DNA of 44,721 bases, from NCBI GenBank assembly GCA_015487095.1, contig WFQM01000320.1:1-44721 (forward strand), in the 5' to 3' direction. This document shows, piece after piece, positions 7,508-16,706 of the stretch; positions within the stretch are counted from its first letter, which is position 1; every line of letters starts with the position of its first letter. Made by a program: the position numbers and the translations under genes. Origin of the DNA: Gammaproteobacteria bacterium. GTDB lineage: Bacteria; Pseudomonadota; Gammaproteobacteria; SZUA-152. A model generated the notes under the pieces. The model did not search any database, was not told the origin of the DNA, and saw nothing but the letters and a program-made list of their open reading frames with translations.

Positions 7508-9100
7508 TCAGCCAGTAGAGTCCTGCCGACATTCCTTGCAATAAACCTTACCCAGTCGAACATGATATTGCACACGTTCGCCCACCAATATTTCCTGCTG
7601 GCAGCTATCACAAAGTGTTGCATCATCCATAGTCATTTCATCAAAACCTTCAACCGGCAGCTCTTTGCCAAACACTATTTTTTTCCAGGGTTTATCTTTG
7701 ACGATATCTTTTCGGTATATTTCTTCTATCGCACGGAAGCGTCTTACTAAATATTCCGGTACGCCAAAGCGTCTCAGGCTTGATTCCATTAATGCTTCAC
7801 GATGGTCAAGCAGCTCATCAGAAATTACCATCCAATGATGGGCGCTGCGTGGGCGTTCACCAAAATAAACATCTTCACCTGTTAGCACCTGACACATAAA
7901 ATTATATTGTTTCTCAATCAGGCGTTGTTTAGTAGCGCCTTCAAAAAAAGGAGACAGCAATGGATCATCGTAGACATGGTCATAAAAATCGATCAATACT
8001 TTTGACAAAAGACGACCTTCATCGAGTCCTTTCCAAAGCTCAAGGTCTGGATCAGGATAGTTGCGGAGTTCTGCACAGCGAATGCGTTCTGCTGTGTCGG
8101 CATCTGTATCATTTAGATTGGCGTCATTAACGCTAGCCCAGTCCCAGAATGGGTCGGCGTGAATTTCCTGCGGGTTAGCGCCTGCCGTCTGAGTGGCTTG
8201 TTGCATGTCTTCCACCATCTTTGGGTGGCCGCATAAATAAACCCGCCATCCTTTCAGGTCTGTATGGTCTGCCAAGGCAATATCATTAGCGCGTCCGGCC
8301 CGATGATTTCTCGGGGTTGCATGCCCTGAAACACACGAAACAGGATGAAAATTATCATGCTGTTCAGACAGTTGCTTCAAAATGGGTTGTAAATATAAAC
8401 CGTGTGGATATCGGCTACCATGATACAAATGAATGGGGCCGGTATGTCCGCTGGAAAGCGCATCACGTACAATTCCCAGCAATGGAGATAAACCTGTTCC
8501 GGTACCGATTAATAGTAATGGCTGGTGTTGCTCACCGGGTACATAATAATTGCTGCCTACGGCTCCCTGAAAATCAAGTTCATCATTTTCTGACAGTTCA
8601 TCAAATATCCAGTTACTCATTACACCATTGGATACACGCTTGACATGAATCTCCAGAAAATAATCTTCCTGTGGCACACTGGATAATGAGTAGCTTCGCA
8701 TCTCACCTTGTTGGTTGCGGATATTAATAAACTGTCCGGGGTGATAATAAAGTTGTGTAGCGGGCTCCAGTAATAAGCGACATACATCAGGTGCCAGTAA
8801 TTCTTTTTTGTAAACAACTGCCCGGTTAAATAAATCAGTATCTCGTGGCAGGGAGATTTCCATGTCGTTTTCGGGCATACATTTGCAGATTAGAAAATAA
8901 TCTTTTTCTTTTAGTGTTTCCCGTAATCCTTTTTGGGCTTTTGGCGGTATAAGTCCATTTTCACAGCGCTGTAAACAAACATGACAGATGCCATTCCCGC
9001 ACGAAAAAGGAACGGTTATCCCGTGGCGCATAAAAACCTGTAAAATGGTTTCGTTTTCACGGCACTGGTAACTTTTTCCTTGGAAGTAAATTTTATTCAT
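7508..9100 (-). CDS. 2Fe-2S ferredoxin / FAD-NAD(P) reductase / truncated globin / zinc-ribbon fusion
   Basis: A 530-residue soluble protein with four parts. (1) A plant-type 2Fe-2S domain with Cys34, 39, 42 and 72. (2) A ferredoxin-reductase-like part with the FAD motif RSYSLSS (135-141) and the nucleotide-binding loop LIGTGTGLSP (197-206), as in BenC-type oxygenase reductases. (3) A truncated-globin domain at about 361-463 with the FYDHVYDDPLLSPFF helix and a proximal-histidine candidate in SAHHWM (421/422). (4) A C-terminal CxxC...CxxC knuckle (497, 500, 521, 524). This is a self-contained NAD(P)H-to-heme chain, so NO detoxification, O2 reduction or sensing is plausible. I chose ATG 9100; ATG 9118 and 9121 add only a few residues. 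It overlaps the YkgJ-type gene by eight bases. Confidence 0.88.
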   Translation of the reverse strand: MNKIYFQGKSYQCRENETILQVFMRHGITVPFSCGNGICHVCLQRCENGLIPPKAQKGLRETLKEKDYFLICKCMPENDMEISLPRDTDLFNRAVVYKKELLAPDVCRLLLEPATQLYYHPGQFINIRNQQGEMRSYSLSSVPQEDYFLEIHVKRVSNGVMSNWIFDELSENDELDFQGAVGSNYYVPGEQHQPLLLIGTGTGLSPLLGIVRDALSSGHTGPIHLYHGSRYPHGLYLQPILKQLSEQHDNFHPVSCVSGHATPRNHRAGRANDIALADHTDLKGWRVYLCGHPKMVEDMQQATQTAGANPQEIHADPFWDWASVNDANLNDTDADTAERIRCAELRNYPDPDLELWKGLDEGRLLSKVLIDFYDHVYDDPLLSPFFEGATKQRLIEKQYNFMCQVLTGEDVYFGERPRSAHHWMVISDELLDHREALMESSLRRFGVPEYLVRRFRAIEEIYRKDIVKDKPWKKIVFGKELPVEGFDEMTMDDATLCDSCQQEILVGERVQYHVRLGKVYCKECRQDSTG

Positions 9101-9506
9101 GTTTTTTTTGATTGGCATCATATTTTTCAGAGTGGCTGTGTATAACAGGGATTTTTATATAATTTTCTTTTAGGATATGGATATTAACGGCCGTTTTGGC
9201 AAGGTCGGCAATATTTTTAAAGCCTTTGCGCAGCACGATTTGTAGTAGAAAATCAGAGTTGCAATCATACTCACGACATACTTTTGGCCGCTTTTTCCAG
9301 TTGGTGCAGCGGCTATTGTTACGATCAAAGTGGATGCAGTAACCTTCCGAATCTTTATCGACGAAACCTTTGGGTGGAGTGTTGCCATTCGCGGGCTCCA
9401 TTTCATCAGGCTGTAAACGTACCAGTTTTCGACAACAAAAAGTTGCACAGCCCATACGCTGCCCTTCATCACAATTTACAAGGTATGTTTTTTTGCAGTT
9501 ATCCAT
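9093..9506 (-). CDS. YkgJ-type cysteine-cluster protein
   Basis: A 137-residue protein with many cysteines, including ATFCCRKL (about 21-28), GYCIHFD, SRCTNW and RPKVCREYDC. This spacing matches the Fe-S/Zn cysteine-cluster family COG0727 (YkgJ). These proteins are thought to bind a metal or an Fe-S cluster; the reaction is unknown. The C-terminus is less conserved and lysine-rich. Its 3' end overlaps the start of the ferredoxin-reductase-globin gene, so the two are translationally coupled and probably functionally linked, for example in cluster handling or redox sensing (inference). Confidence 0.85.
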   Translation of the reverse strand: MDNCKKTYLVNCDEGQRMGCATFCCRKLVRLQPDEMEPANGNTPPKGFVDKDSEGYCIHFDRNNSRCTNWKKRPKVCREYDCNSDFLLQIVLRKGFKNIADLAKTAVNIHILKENYIKIPVIHSHSEKYDANQKKHE

Positions 9507-9589: not shown

Positions 9590-9639
9590 ATATGTTATCA
9601 CTTGGCACTATCTGCTACTGACAGGGTTCTACAATAAGA

Positions 9640-9682
9640 TGCCAGTGAATTTGTTGCATAACCAAGAACAAACTCACTGGCA
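9640..9682 (-). terminator. hairpin after the roadblock/GTPase operon
   Basis: Arms 9640-9655 and 9667-9682 pair at 15 of 16 positions around an 11-base loop. It sits 28 bases beyond the stop of the roadblock gene, at the end of the four-gene minus-strand operon. The bases after it on the minus strand (cttattgtag) are not a clean U tract, so it may be an attenuating or transcript-end structure rather than a textbook terminator. Confidence 0.5.
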
Positions 9683-9709
9683 TATAATCTTTATATTTTC
9701 AGATTTTAC

Positions 9710-10114
9710 CTAAATAGCCGCTTCAATAGACGGCATAGACGAACGCGATTTCGTCAGAACCATACCGAGGTTGGCTGATTTTCGACAAACAAAAGTCGCT
9801 ACATGTTCTTCATTGCTTTTGGAACGTAAAAATACGTGTAACAAATTATCACTGTTAATAATGATTTCCTGAAAATAATGGTGGTTATCATTTTCCACTC
9901 CGCGGGCCTTTTTGAACATACTTTCAATCAGGGACACATTGGTTCCCTGAAAAAGGTCTGCGGTTGCAGCAGCAACAACCTCCAGCACTTCAGCCGGGTG
10001 TGAGTCCACAGTCTTGGCGCTTAGTAGCATACCGGTGCTGAGGTCCACGAAACCTGCGGCGACACATTCCGGAATGGATGCGATGGCTGTTTGTAGGGCT
10101 TTATCTAATGACAT
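9710..10114 (-). CDS. roadblock/LC7 domain protein (MglB-like)
   Basis: A 134-residue single-domain protein. The pattern MSLDKALQTAIASIPECVAA followed by GFVDLSTGMLLSA, a long helix and a beta hairpin (LHVFLRSK, HVATFVCRKSANLG) is that of the roadblock/LC7 fold. Such proteins dimerise and bind small Ras-like GTPases; MglB is the known GTPase-activating example. The start is ATG 10114, preceded at ideal spacing by aaggag; the longer upstream frame is not used. It is the last gene of the operon, 32 bases after the ABC-phosphatase fusion and near the GTPase gene, its likely partner. Confidence 0.88.
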   Translation of the reverse strand: MSLDKALQTAIASIPECVAAGFVDLSTGMLLSAKTVDSHPAEVLEVVAAATADLFQGTNVSLIESMFKKARGVENDNHHYFQEIIINSDNLLHVFLRSKSNEEHVATFVCRKSANLGMVLTKSRSSMPSIEAAI

Positions 10115-10146
10115 TTTTTTCTCCTTGATAGTAAATGATATGCGGT

Positions 10147-11508
10147 TTATGACGACGCAATATGTCGTCCGTTGCTTATGCCGGAATTTGCTACCGCCAA
10201 CGCAAATTCCTCCAAAAATTCTACTTGAACATCTGATTGCACCCAACGAGGCTCAATGCTACGTGCGGCCTCCAGAGCATCCAGAGCAGTTTCACCTTCC
10301 CAGATCAACTGCGCAACGAGCATAGTGCCGGTACGACCCATGCCGGCTTTGCAATGCATGGCAATAGCTTCGCCCTGTTCGGTCAATTCACCCACCTGTT
10401 CGCAAAGTTTGAGAGCGGCTTCAATGGTAGGTACTCCCATATCCTTAATTGGAAATGCAATTCCCTTGATGTCGTATTCGGCAAGTATAACCGGATCAAT
10501 GGGTTGAGTTGTCAGGGAAACCAGCACGCTGATTCCCACTCGCTGTAGCGCAGCGAGATCATAATCCAGTTCGATTAATAATCCGGGACGTGGCGTGCCG
10601 GCCAGGTCACCTTTTCTAAGCCAAAGAAAATTACGAGGCCCAAATGCATCACTTTTGTATTTCCGAGCCTCCTCGGGTATTTTGGGGCGAACCGTTTTAA
10701 GCGGTGCAGCTGGCGTATCTATGGCTTCTGTTACGGGGTCATTCAGATGTTCGTCGGGTGTGTCTGGGGCAGAAACACAACAGGAGCCACTGCGCACAAA
10801 ATCTCTGGCCGCTTGTGATTGAGGTGCTGCAAAAAAATCGGCGGTGGGTTGTGTTTCATGAACCCAGCCACCGGCCAATAATGCGGTTTGTCCACCCAGT
10901 TTGATAGCTTGTTTCTGGTTATGTACAACGACCACCACAGCGCGGCGTTCGGCTTCCATGAGCAGATAATCCAACAGGCGATGGGTTTCTGCTTCATCCA
11001 GCCCGGCAGTGGGTTCGTCTACAAAAATTAATTTGGGGTTAGCTGCTACAGTACGGGCAATTGCCAGGTGGCGTTGCACCGCCAGTGGAAAATCTGAGGC
11101 ATTGTCATTCAGCCGGTCAACTAATTCAGTCAGGCCTGCCTTGCTCAACAGGCGTTGTGCCACATCCCGTTGCTGGGAGATATCCAGTGTATGGCGTTCG
11201 GGCATATCATTAACAATATTCTCACGAATGCTGGCCATGATGAGCTTGGTTTTCTGTGCCACCAGTGCAGGTGACTCAGACTTTCCCAAAGGCATGCCGA
11301 CATATTCGGCCTTGCCCCAAGTGCGTAGAGAAGGATTGGCATTGTTAAGGCCGGAAAGTGTTCGTAGCAGGGTGGATTTTCCAGTACCGGCTGGGCCCAA
11401 CAACACGGTCATTCCCTGCTCGGGAATATCCAGGTCGATACCGTTAAGAATAATTTTATCACCAAAAGCGACACCATACTCTCGCAAAGATAGAATTGAT
11501 TCGCTCAC
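10147..11508 (-). CDS. ABC ATPase fused to dual-specificity (Tyr/Ser/Thr) phosphatase
   Basis: A 453-residue fusion. Residues 1-240 are an ABC ATPase of PstB/GlnQ style: Walker A GPAGTGKST (38-46), Q-loop Gln85, Walker B LIFVDEP (160-166), D-loop AGLD and switch His196. The usual LSGGQ signature is replaced by FPLAVQRHL (140-148). A linker of about 50 residues leads to a Cys-based phosphatase (about 285-440) with general-acid candidate Asp356 in FPIKDMGVP and P-loop HCKAGMGRTG (385-394; nucleophile Cys386, Arg392), most like compact DUSP23-type enzymes. No permease is nearby, so a regulatory ATPase-phosphatase is more likely than a transporter subunit. It starts at GTG 11508, overlapping the GTPase stop in GTGA. 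Confidence 0.9.
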   Translation of the reverse strand: MSESILSLREYGVAFGDKIILNGIDLDIPEQGMTVLLGPAGTGKSTLLRTLSGLNNANPSLRTWGKAEYVGMPLGKSESPALVAQKTKLIMASIRENIVNDMPERHTLDISQQRDVAQRLLSKAGLTELVDRLNDNASDFPLAVQRHLAIARTVAANPKLIFVDEPTAGLDEAETHRLLDYLLMEAERRAVVVVVHNQKQAIKLGGQTALLAGGWVHETQPTADFFAAPQSQAARDFVRSGSCCVSAPDTPDEHLNDPVTEAIDTPAAPLKTVRPKIPEEARKYKSDAFGPRNFLWLRKGDLAGTPRPGLLIELDYDLAALQRVGISVLVSLTTQPIDPVILAEYDIKGIAFPIKDMGVPTIEAALKLCEQVGELTEQGEAIAMHCKAGMGRTGTMLVAQLIWEGETALDALEAARSIEPRWVQSDVQVEFLEEFALAVANSGISNGRHIASS

Positions 11509-12053
11509 GCGGCTTCTCCATTCAGACCAGGGTCCAGAGAATAAAGCAGAGCCTGAACCAGCATCATGACATCATCATGTTGACGGGCATCCACCTCGAA
11601 CACAGGCACATTCAGATCCAGTTTTGTCAGAGTTGCCTGGTAGTCCTCAAGCTTTAATCCTTTGCGCAATTCCATTCTTGTAATGCCAATGGCCACAGCA
11701 TTATTTTGAATAAACTCTTTAAAGGCGCTGATAAAGGCCTTTAAGTCATCCAGTGGAGCGGGATTGGCATCGTCCAGCATAATAATTACACCAAGGCTGC
11801 CATCGGTGAGCAAGTCCCACATAAAATTGAAACGCTCTTGTCCGGGTGTACCATAAAGATGCAGTGTCTCTCCATTATCCAGACGCATACTACCGTAATC
11901 CATTGCCACTGTGGTCAATTCTTTTTTGTCTTTTGTTTCATCTGTTGCAGTCTGTTCTGTGGAAAATGGTGCAATATCACTAATTGCGGTAATTGCGGTT
12001 GTTTTGCCTGCACCTACGGGGCCGGTAAAAATAATTTTGTACTGACCAATCAT
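11505..12053 (-). CDS. small Ras-like GTPase of the Arf/MglA-related COG2229 group
   Basis: A 182-residue GTPase. The P-loop is GPVGAGKTT (11-19); the switch II region is GTPGQERF (68-75); VIIMLDDANP is the strand preceding the helical half. The base-specificity motif, normally N/TKxD, reads TRME (125-128); COG2229 proteins often diverge here. The start ATG 12053 has aggaa eight bases upstream. The stop overlaps the GTG of the ABC-phosphatase gene, and a roadblock gene lies at the operon end, so a GTPase-roadblock switch is the natural reading, with the receiver-like protein and the phosphatase as input or output. Confidence 0.9.
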   Translation of the reverse strand: MIGQYKIIFTGPVGAGKTTAITAISDIAPFSTEQTATDETKDKKELTTVAMDYGSMRLDNGETLHLYGTPGQERFNFMWDLLTDGSLGVIIMLDDANPAPLDDLKAFISAFKEFIQNNAVAIGITRMELRKGLKLEDYQATLTKLDLNVPVFEVDARQHDDVMMLVQALLYSLDPGLNGEAA

Positions 12054-12091
12054 AATTAATTCCTGTTTTTCAGGTTATCATCGAGTTACTG

Positions 12092-13255
12092 TTATTTGCT
12101 GATACGGCGTAAAATAGAGGCTAATAATCCGCGCCTTGTGGGTTTGTCTTTCATGACTTCTTTGGGGGCAATTAGTGAGTCTGCCCGGCGTGTTGCAGAC
12201 CCTGTTAAACCTGTTGTTATTGCTGCACTATAAAATGAATACACATGGGCTTGATCAATATCCAGGCTTTGGGCGATGTTATCCAATGTGCGTGGATTTC
12301 CTGCCCATAAAGAGGCAATACGCATGCCGTATGGTGTATGTGGAAGACGAGGAAAATTGGGCCAGGATTGCAAATAATACGGTGCAGATAAATCAGTACC
12401 TTCCGGCACGCGACCGCGTGCTGTACGCAAAGTCAGATCCCATATCAGGTAATTAATGGATATGGATCTCAGGTCGTCGGTTTCATCTGCGGGTAATTCT
12501 TTTTTGCCTGTATTGCAAACACGATTGATCTCTATTGTAAATTCTTCGCTCAATGTTGCCACGCCCAGGTTTTTTAGCTGACTGTCAGTTAAATCACTAT
12601 AAGCACGATCCTGGTCGGGCAACAGGATGAGTCGGCGATTTCTCCAACATTGCACGTAGAGAATACATTGTTGCCCAACACTTTTTTTAAGGCTGGAGAG
12701 AATACGTCCCAAGAGATAATTATCCGGATTATAATAAAGTTCAGACTCACTCTGTATACCGGTTTGTTGTATCGATTTCAAGTTAATACTTGTTGTCTTG
12801 AGCTGTGTATTCAGTGAGTGGGCTGCCGCGTTAATTCCTGTTGTATTGGTATCCAGTTTTGTTGATGCTTCTGAATTATCATCAGAGGCTGGAGGGTTTG
12901 CTGAATCAGTATTGCTGATGATTTCTGTGGTTGGCGGTAATCCTGTTACCAGGTCAAAAATAGATTCCCACAATAAATCCAGCTTGGCAGGTTTGGCGAC
13001 ATAAGTAGCCCCCTTGATTTTTATGGGGGATTCTGACATGACAATAGCGGGTAGATCAGGATGTTGTTGTTGATATTTTTCCCAAGCATTGGCCTCGCCA
13101 TCCAGATCAACAATACCCAGATGTGCGTCCTCATTTTGCGCAAACTCGCAACGCCCTTTGAAGATAATTTTAAAAATGGTGCCCATCCTGGAAATAGACC
13201 GTTCATCCATGCCGACTAGAATAACTTTTATAGGTGAGTGTACTTCTGTTTTCAC
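12092..13255 (-). CDS. receiver-like regulator with a conserved C-terminal domain
   Basis: A 387-residue protein. Residues 9-105 resemble a two-component receiver: strand KVILVG followed by Asp17/Glu18, IVDLDG with candidate phospho-acceptor Asp50, PAIVMS, and VAKPAK with Lys88. It is divergent, and phosphorylation is unproven. A linker at about 106-165 is rich in Ser, Thr, Asn and Asp. The C-terminal half includes LLGRILSSLKKSV, a cluster of Trp and Tyr residues (YYLQSWPNFPRL) and a helical tail (MRIASLWAGNPRTLDNIA) that could be a winged-helix-like module; I do not recognise the family. GTG 13255 is chosen because the first strand precedes the first ATG. It is the first gene of the operon, 38 bases before the GTPase. 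Confidence 0.75.
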   Translation of the reverse strand: MKTEVHSPIKVILVGMDERSISRMGTIFKIIFKGRCEFAQNEDAHLGIVDLDGEANAWEKYQQQHPDLPAIVMSESPIKIKGATYVAKPAKLDLLWESIFDLVTGLPPTTEIISNTDSANPPASDDNSEASTKLDTNTTGINAAAHSLNTQLKTTSINLKSIQQTGIQSESELYYNPDNYLLGRILSSLKKSVGQQCILYVQCWRNRRLILLPDQDRAYSDLTDSQLKNLGVATLSEEFTIEINRVCNTGKKELPADETDDLRSISINYLIWDLTLRTARGRVPEGTDLSAPYYLQSWPNFPRLPHTPYGMRIASLWAGNPRTLDNIAQSLDIDQAHVYSFYSAAITTGLTGSATRRADSLIAPKEVMKDKPTRRGLLASILRRISK

Positions 13256-16288: not shown

Positions 16289-16654
16289 TCAAATTTCCAA
16301 TTCGTTACTGATTTCAGACAATATGTAGCGGGCCATTGCTAAATTGCCACTAGTCTTGTCGAGTATAAGGTAGACGAAGAGTCCATCCTTTTGGGGTAAA
16401 AGCCGAATCAGGTGGTATTGTGTACCGAGGGTAATCAAAATATCTTCAAGGCTATCCTTCAACCCCAGGTTTCGCATCGTCGTACGTTTTGCACGTACTA
16501 TTTCAGTGTTGCCAACGGCAGCTAAACTGAGATTGAGTTTTGTGTCACCTTTTTCAGAGTCGAGCATCAGGCCACTGTTACTATCAACGATACAAGCACC
16601 GATGAACCCGTCGAGTTTACGGGTTTTTTTAAGACTCTCTTTCAAACTTGCCAT
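16289..16654 (-). CDS. second roadblock/LC7-like protein
   Basis: A 121-residue protein of roadblock pattern: helix ASLKESLKKTRKLDGFIGA, strand CIVDSNSGLMLDS, a central helix ending in EIVRAKRTTMRNLG, then YHLIRLLPQKDGLFVYLILDK as the second beta unit. It differs clearly from the roadblock protein at 9710-10114. The start is ATG 16654 with ggag eight bases upstream. No GTPase gene is adjacent, so it may serve the GTPase at 11505-12053 as an alternative partner, or act alone; that is inference. It ends close to the lipoprotein gene, convergent with it. Confidence 0.75.
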   Translation of the reverse strand: MASLKESLKKTRKLDGFIGACIVDSNSGLMLDSEKGDTKLNLSLAAVGNTEIVRAKRTTMRNLGLKDSLEDILITLGTQYHLIRLLPQKDGLFVYLILDKTSGNLAMARYILSEISNELEI

Positions 16655-16706
16655 CACTGTTCTCCATTCCTAAATCATAGTTTTTAACGTGGTGAGCATA
16701 CATTTT

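Follow-up and report, generated by a model that had tools for sequence, protein, structure and literature searches.

A conserved operon in which an ABC ATPase–phosphatase fusion adjoins a divergent roadblock protein, with a Group 3-type MglA GTPase and a globin gene nearby

Group 3 MglA GTPases are widespread, with representatives in Neisseria and Xanthomonas as well as in bacteria from the environment, and to our knowledge both their input and their output are essentially unknown. The locus considered here encodes a GTPase of this kind together with a receiver-like protein, a fusion of an ATP-binding cassette (ABC) ATPase with a dual-specificity phosphatase (ABC-DSP), and a roadblock protein; it lies in a 44,721-nucleotide stretch of DNA (the window; contig WFQM01000320.1 of assembly GCA_015487095.1) from a 3.6-Mb metagenome-assembled genome (MAG) of a gammaproteobacterium. 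In the account by Wuichet and Sogaard-Andersen (PMC4316618), Group 3 MglA of the β- and γ-Proteobacteria forms a module with a conserved protein, which has a receiver-like domain at its N terminus and a winged helix at its C terminus, and with one or two coupled MglB proteins, and the GTPase is recognized by GTPGQ in G3, a G4 that deviates from [NT]KxD and DAR in G5. The window GTPase (Pfam ATP_bind_1, 1.8e-10, and Ras, 3.5e-7; weak sequence match to MglA, 3t12) has the motifs GPVGAGKTT, GTPGQ in G3 rather than the TVPGQ of Group 1 MglA, TRME in the G4 position and DAR in the G5 position, with Asp155, Arg157 and Gln72 conserved in 31/31 sequences, and thus shares the GTPGQ, the atypical G4 and the DAR of Group 3. 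Also shared are a roadblock-fold protein nearby and an adjacent receiver-like protein with a conserved C-terminal region, corresponding to what is termed in Group 3 a "conserved protein of unknown function." The locus as a whole differs from the Group 3 module in three ways: the ABC-DSP gene stands between the GTPase and roadblock genes, a globin-reductase gene lies downstream, and the neighboring roadblock is a member of a divergent subfamily that is missed by Pfam and has no Asp-Gly pair, because of which we do not file the locus as a plain Group 3 system. Neither ABC-DSP nor globin is mentioned for Group 3 in the accessible part of PMC4316618. The preliminary description of this DNA knew of no characterized system with these parts; that statement stands for the whole set and has to be given up for the trio of receiver-like protein, GTPase and MglB, which the same source describes as Group 3.

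Other described systems share fewer features. The only Group 3 phenotype that we found is that of an orphan mglB mutation in Snodgrassella, which altered pilus-type motility and gut colonization (PMC11112851); the Snodgrassella/Neisseria mgl locus likewise has a Group 3 mglA, with several mglB genes including the orphan, but unlike the window no ABC-DSP or globin is described for it. The actinobacterial conservon (CvnA-D) shares with the window a small GTPase with GTPGQ and a roadblock protein in one operon, but it has the histidine kinase CvnA and CvnC, whereas the window has neither, and there is no kinase gene among the open reading frames (ORFs) of the window operon. A link between globin and roadblock is found in HGbRL of Methylacidiphilum, a globin fused to a roadblock domain (PDB 3WFW/3WFX), for which it was proposed that a conformational change in the globin is relayed to the roadblock (PMC4476040); HGbRL differs in its globin class, in being a single fused protein and in having no phosphatase or ABC partner described. 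Our search of the open-access literature returned no description of roadblock combined with globin and phosphatase, with truncated hemoglobin, or with ABC ATPase and phosphatase, which is not proof of novelty.

The four genes of the unit were found in the order and on the strand given in the preliminary description, with gaps of 38, −4 and 32 bases, as follows.

12092 to 13255, minus strand: receiver-like protein gene (387 residues, GTG start)
11505 to 12053, minus strand: MglA-like small GTPase gene (182 residues; 38-base gap after the receiver-like gene)
10147 to 11508, minus strand: ABC-DSP fusion gene (453 residues; GTGA 4-base overlap with the GTPase gene)
9710 to 10114, minus strand: roadblock/LC7 gene (134 residues; 32-base gap after the ABC-DSP gene)

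The identities proposed for the gene products were also borne out, by Pfam for the GTPase and for the ABC-DSP fusion (ABC_tran and DSP-PTPase) and by structure models for the receiver and roadblock, neither of which gave an above-threshold match in Pfam or NCBIfam. For the roadblock gene, the ORF tool places the start at TTG 10246; we prefer ATG 10114, because AAGGAG lies upstream of it and the resulting 134-residue form is conserved in all relatives.

The constant part of the locus is the ABC-phosphatase and its roadblock, to which the receiver-like protein and GTPase are an optional addition. Five roadblock queries yielded 146 relatives among GTDB genomes; the 80 best loci were retrieved and, together with the window, make up the 81 loci of a homology map. 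The ABC and DSP domains adjoin the roadblock in 78 of the 81; in the other three (L074, L079 and L080) the roadblock gene is less than 200 bases from a contig end. When 274 genomes of the class, an unbiased sample, were searched separately for ABC-DSP (E ≤ 1e-40) and for roadblock (E ≤ 1e-15), both searches matched the identical five genomes. This agreement, along with the recurrence of the same gene order in many genera, places the neighborhood beyond chance, and it is very likely that phosphatase and roadblock are functionally linked. Looked for in other genomes, as the preliminary description had proposed, the four genes recur together in many genera and are a real, widely conserved unit. 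The full set in the order receiver-like protein, GTPase, ABC-DSP, roadblock is present in Gallionella, Nitrosomonadales, Methylotenera, Rhodocyclaceae, Thiohalophilus, Marinobacter, Wenzhouxiangella, Oceanospirillaceae and further unnamed gammaproteobacterial lineages; Caldimonas, Roseateles, Polaromonas and Diaphorobacter have the set minus a recognizable receiver-like protein, and the 4-base overlap of the GTPase and ABC genes is found in the window and in L064, L066, L069, L107 and L121. A GTPase gene lies within 6.5 kb in 33 of the 81 loci, and the receiver-like C-terminal domain in 27, never without the GTPase. The pair of ABC-DSP and roadblock without an adjacent GTPase is seen in Comamonas, Delftia, Stenotrophomonas, Hydrogenophaga, Acidovorax and Myxococcota, and a profile search at 1e-5 found no MglA-like GTPase in 18 of the 34 genomes with such a locus, several of which are MAGs of unknown completeness. 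It is because of these GTPase-less loci and genomes that we take the ABC-phosphatase and roadblock as the core.

The ABC-DSP fusion comprises an ABC ATPase (residues ~1–245) and a dual-specificity phosphatase (residues ~281–453; Tc-R-P, 3e-17 by Pfam). In the phosphatase half, all 78 copies keep the general-acid Asp, the HCxAGxGRTG sequence (the HCX5R loop) and a Gln further downstream, and for this reason we expect it to be an active phosphatase. Its closest solved relative, PDB 25xa (1.3e-33), is a 162-residue chain of the DSP part alone, without the ABC domain present in the fusion. In the ABC half, Walker A (GPxGxGKS), the Q-loop Gln, Walker B (DEPT) and the H-loop His are kept in ~99–100% of 74 copies, and the LSGGQ signature is degenerate in all 74. 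Because the ATPase residues are kept and the signature is lost, this half probably binds ATP without being able to form the usual transporter ATP sandwich. In two Myxococcales MAGs (L072:6256-9903 and L100:6325-9903), the ABC-DSP protein is ~1200 residues long, with a long N-terminal extension and two ABC domains (in L100 by homology).

The structure model of the roadblock protein (pLDDT 91.5) shows the topology of roadblock/LC7 proteins and is matched best by MglB of Myxococcus xanthus (Z 16.9, 2.0 Å over 117 residues; Foldseek match to 3kye, 2.7e-08). Mean column identity is 74% across 61 sequences, including those from Myxococcota, so that this protein changes far more slowly than its partners. 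Cys17, His93 and Cys110 are invariant and are retained in a Ruegeria relative that is 40–43% identical; this conservation hints at a redox or metal role, which we offer as a lead only. The Asp-Gly pair of Group 2–5 MglB is replaced in the window protein by VDLSTGM. The Pfam roadblock model, run on the host genome, misses the window protein and matches three others, on contigs C254 and C301, where canonical MglB-type roadblocks are encoded; those on C301 may be the true GTPase-activating proteins (GAPs) of the window GTPase. On the same contig (L013:4899-7226), a receiver-like paralogue, ~49% identical, is found with two MglB-type roadblocks and no adjacent GTPase. In many relatives of the window locus, a second MglB-type gene (roblB/C) follows the roadblock gene; it is not present in the window.

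Roadblocks of the window type are found beside phosphatases of other families as well. Among 40 fetched neighborhoods of other Group 3 MglA loci, two arrangements were distinguished. Type I, which includes a locus on host contig C254, has the order receiver-like protein, GTPase, GTPX, protoglobin in some cases, and MglB; type II has receiver-like protein, GTPase, MglB, a relative of the window roadblock (E about 1e-12) and a calcineurin-like phosphatase, in 7 of 9 loci. A third setting is that of the Ruegeria relative, whose gene lies among four dynamin-family GTPase genes (L190:9001-9402, on a plasmid of Ruegeria sp. SCSIO 43209, and L191:7001-7402); a Ser/Thr kinase gene comes next and, in L190, the record read to its end, genes for an FHA protein and a PP2C phosphatase. 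Chance can hardly account for three unrelated phosphatase families near these roadblocks, and their presence favors the idea that the window-type roadblock works with reversible protein phosphorylation. As observations in their own right, GTPX (L014:5822-6463 and relatives) is a protein of 213 residues with no Pfam match, encoded directly after the GTPase in type I loci, and the dynamin and phospho-signaling cluster of Ruegeria looks undescribed. The type II phosphatase protein (L147, L148, L150, L151, L155, L163 and L166; e.g. L155:7185-8765) has its calcineurin-like domain at the C terminus, and its N-terminal half has no Pfam match; a LSNFxVDxxGxLxYxDDD segment appears protein kinase–like by eye, and the protein is possibly a kinase-phosphatase fusion.

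Downstream of the roadblock gene are three features that the preliminary description had missed.

9640 to 9682, minus strand: terminator-like hairpin (16 pairs, then TCTTATT) after the roadblock gene
9093 to 9506, minus strand: gene for a CxxCxxCC putative metal-chelating protein (137 residues; PF03692, 4.6e-7)
7508 to 9121, minus strand: gene for a Fer2-FAD-NAD(P) reductase–truncated globin–zinc-ribbon-like fusion (537 residues; Pfam Fer2, FAD_binding_6, NAD_binding_1 and Bac_globin)

The globin part is encoded within 6.5 kb in 33 of the 81 loci and the CxxCxxCC protein in 14. Where flanking sequence is ample, globin accompanies 21 of 26 loci with the GTPase and 7 of 39 without it. The host genome has two Bac_globin and three protoglobin matches in its 3.6 Mb, two of these five in MglA operons; four matches reach the curated cut-off, giving an expected background of ~1.5% per 13-kb window and a nominal binomial p of 6e-39, which is overstated because related loci are not independent. 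The close form of the globin–zinc ribbon protein (E below 1e-50) is found only in the 3 of 274 class genomes that have the full operon. The globin His83 is conserved in 32 of 32 sequences and CxxC..CxxC in 30–31 of 32, and the 2Fe-2S cysteines are conserved too. In L067 the globin homology begins less than 100 bases past the end of the roadblock gene. Globins also occur beside other Group 3 MglA loci, as protoglobins in L133, L136, L143, L162 and L014 and as a globin-TrHb protein in the type II locus L166. We propose that the system uses the fusion protein as its haem sensor or NO/O2 enzyme. With respect to transcription, the stretch 9620–9705 folds at −26.7 kcal/mol (z −4.9), and in five close relatives, a small sample, 100% of cells are paired and three pairs are changed on both sides. 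In this genus, the transcript of the four genes likely ends at the hairpin, and given its position and compensatory changes, the globin genes probably form a separate, following transcript; we dropped, for this genus, the notion that the globin gene is always cotranscribed.

These observations are consistent with a two-layer signaling locus, a reading that we hold at about even strength. A roadblock dimer would scaffold the ABC-DSP fusion, and ATP binding by the transport-incompetent ABC half would gate the phosphatase half, which could remove Ser, Thr or Tyr phosphate from a target protein. Going by its linkage, the ferredoxin reductase/truncated globin protein might inform the roadblock of O2, NO or the redox state. 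In β- and γ-Proteobacteria only, the Group 3 MglA GTPase and its receiver-like partner would form an output layer in which the core sets or reads the GTP state and the GTPase acts on transcription or surface motility. The linkage of the genes is observed, and this mechanism is our extrapolation from it. By virtue of this linkage, the globin becomes a concrete candidate input (O2, NO or redox) for Group 3 MglA GTPases, and the ABC-DSP, a phosphatase with intact catalytic motifs, a concrete candidate partner, which opens the question of their input and output to testing. The linkage also suggests that bacterial roadblocks act, in some cases, as partners of phosphatases and not as GAPs, and it offers a plausible nontransport role for a signature-less family of ABC ATPases; operon and haem protein together may be an undescribed means by which bacteria signal the level of oxygen or nitric oxide. 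More tentatively still, there could be a new class of relay in which a haem globin controls a roadblock platform that holds a phosphoprotein phosphatase against a P-loop NTPase, one divergent roadblock subfamily being reused with DSP, calcineurin-like and PP2C phosphatases and with ABC, MglA and dynamin proteins. Such a class would link gas sensing, protein dephosphorylation and G-protein switching.

Several points weigh against the two-layer reading. The roadblock was the bait for the locus set, which holds the best 80 of 146 relatives and over-represents Comamonadaceae. Globin is absent at 32 of the 39 well-flanked GTPase-less loci and is thus not an obligate part, its fused flavin reductase could mean a plain NO dioxygenase, and in the window the terminator-like hairpin lies between the globin genes and the four-gene unit. 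Furthermore, a fold search identified no clear family for the C-terminal domain of the receiver-like protein, at the place of the Group 3 winged helix, the match list being filled by receivers.

The best-surviving alternative, a possibility that we take seriously without favoring it, is that the globin gene encodes an ordinary NO-detoxifying enzyme of the flavohaemoglobin sort and that the signaling genes meet nitrosative stress by another route. The window protein shares with flavohaemoglobin (Hmp) and with reductase-linked truncated globins an FAD/NAD reductase joined to a haem globin, and in Legionella a bicistronic operon of truncated globin and ferredoxin reductase genes is controlled by NsrR, an NO regulator (PMC3820574). 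In flavohaemoglobins the globin comes first, at the N terminus, and the FAD and NAD domains after it, whereas the window protein has the order Fer2, FAD, NAD, truncated globin and zinc ribbon, with an added 2Fe-2S domain and signaling genes as neighbors. Nor is catalysis-ready electron transfer the conserved feature, as the globin protein of L067 has no reductase part and that of L103 only the Fer2 domain. Finally, globins of a different kind occupy similar positions, namely the nonreductase protoglobins and a globin-GGDEF-EAL sensor. The latter is encoded ~3 kb upstream of ABC-DSP in Paenacidovorax caeni (L098:301-2190; protoglobin, GGDEF and EAL domains confirmed), and the same arrangement is found by homology in Comamonas suwonensis (L099:5072-6928), the distance in the two loci being ~2–3 kb.

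Somewhat less probable is that the locus consists of two independent modules, ABC-DSP with roadblock and receiver-like protein with GTPase, that are cotranscribed for coregulation only and make no direct contact. Each can occur by itself: the former stands alone in Comamonas, Delftia, Stenotrophomonas, Hydrogenophaga and Myxococcota, and relatives of the GTPase, present in 45 of the 274 class genomes, are found alone in ~40 of those 45. However, several branches of the GTPase tree, which covers relatives of the window GTPase, gained or retained the combination, usually in the same order and with very short gaps or overlaps, and the type II loci repeat the theme of a GTPase, a related roadblock and a different phosphatase. 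Well-supported branches of that tree force at least four changes in the ABC-DSP label (bootstraps not fully settled), such that the association with the GTPase has been gained or lost repeatedly. With the same reservation about bootstraps, the tree does not support a single origin of the ABC-DSP–linked GTPases.

The preliminary description had proposed a linear pathway with the receiver as input, GTPase and roadblock as switch and the ATPase-phosphatase as output; spelled out, the receiver would be phosphorylated and the adjacent roadblock would be the GAP of the GTPase. This pathway is favored by the order of the genes and their GTGA coupling in the window, by the MglB fold of the roadblock and by the canonical Asp, Ser and Lys positions kept in the window receiver; we nonetheless consider it improbable. 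In the structure model, the receiver-like protein has an N-terminal receiver (residues 7–106; Z 11.7 over 97 residues against KdpE), a variable linker modeled with low confidence, a confident C-terminal α/β domain and a C-terminal helix. It is the C-terminal part and the tail that are conserved. Of 27 relatives, 12 lack the receiver domain, which therefore cannot serve as the input in general; in the receivers that remain, the phospho-acceptor position is sometimes Asn, as in L067 and L087. The GTPase-roadblock switch is doubtful as well: the roadblock gene keeps company with the ABC-DSP gene and not with the GTPase gene, the core persists in genomes in which no MglA-like GTPase was detected, the Asp-Gly pair is missing, and there are separate Pfam-type MglB genes, often adjoining (roblB/C). 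The C-terminal helix of the receiver-like protein is basic and amphipathic in nearly all relatives (RGLLASILRRISK in the window; GLFGSLLSRLRN and SLLRSLFAKISGL), which suggests a tail that docks to a membrane or partner.

That ABC-DSP is instead the ATPase of an unrecognized transporter or of an anti-phage module is highly improbable and was rejected, for although the ABC half is closest to PstB-type ATPases and has weak padloc matches, the signature is lost in every copy, the operon has no ABC permease gene, the padloc matches reflect mainly generic P-loop/ATPase motifs with none for the other operon proteins, and the roadblock partner is near-universal.

About 3 kb upstream of the four genes is a further roadblock-like ORF, which has no Pfam match.

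16289 to 16657, minus strand: divergent roadblock-like ORF (122 residues)

Its relatives adjoin MglA GTPase genes in L152, L157, L159, L160, L168 and L169.

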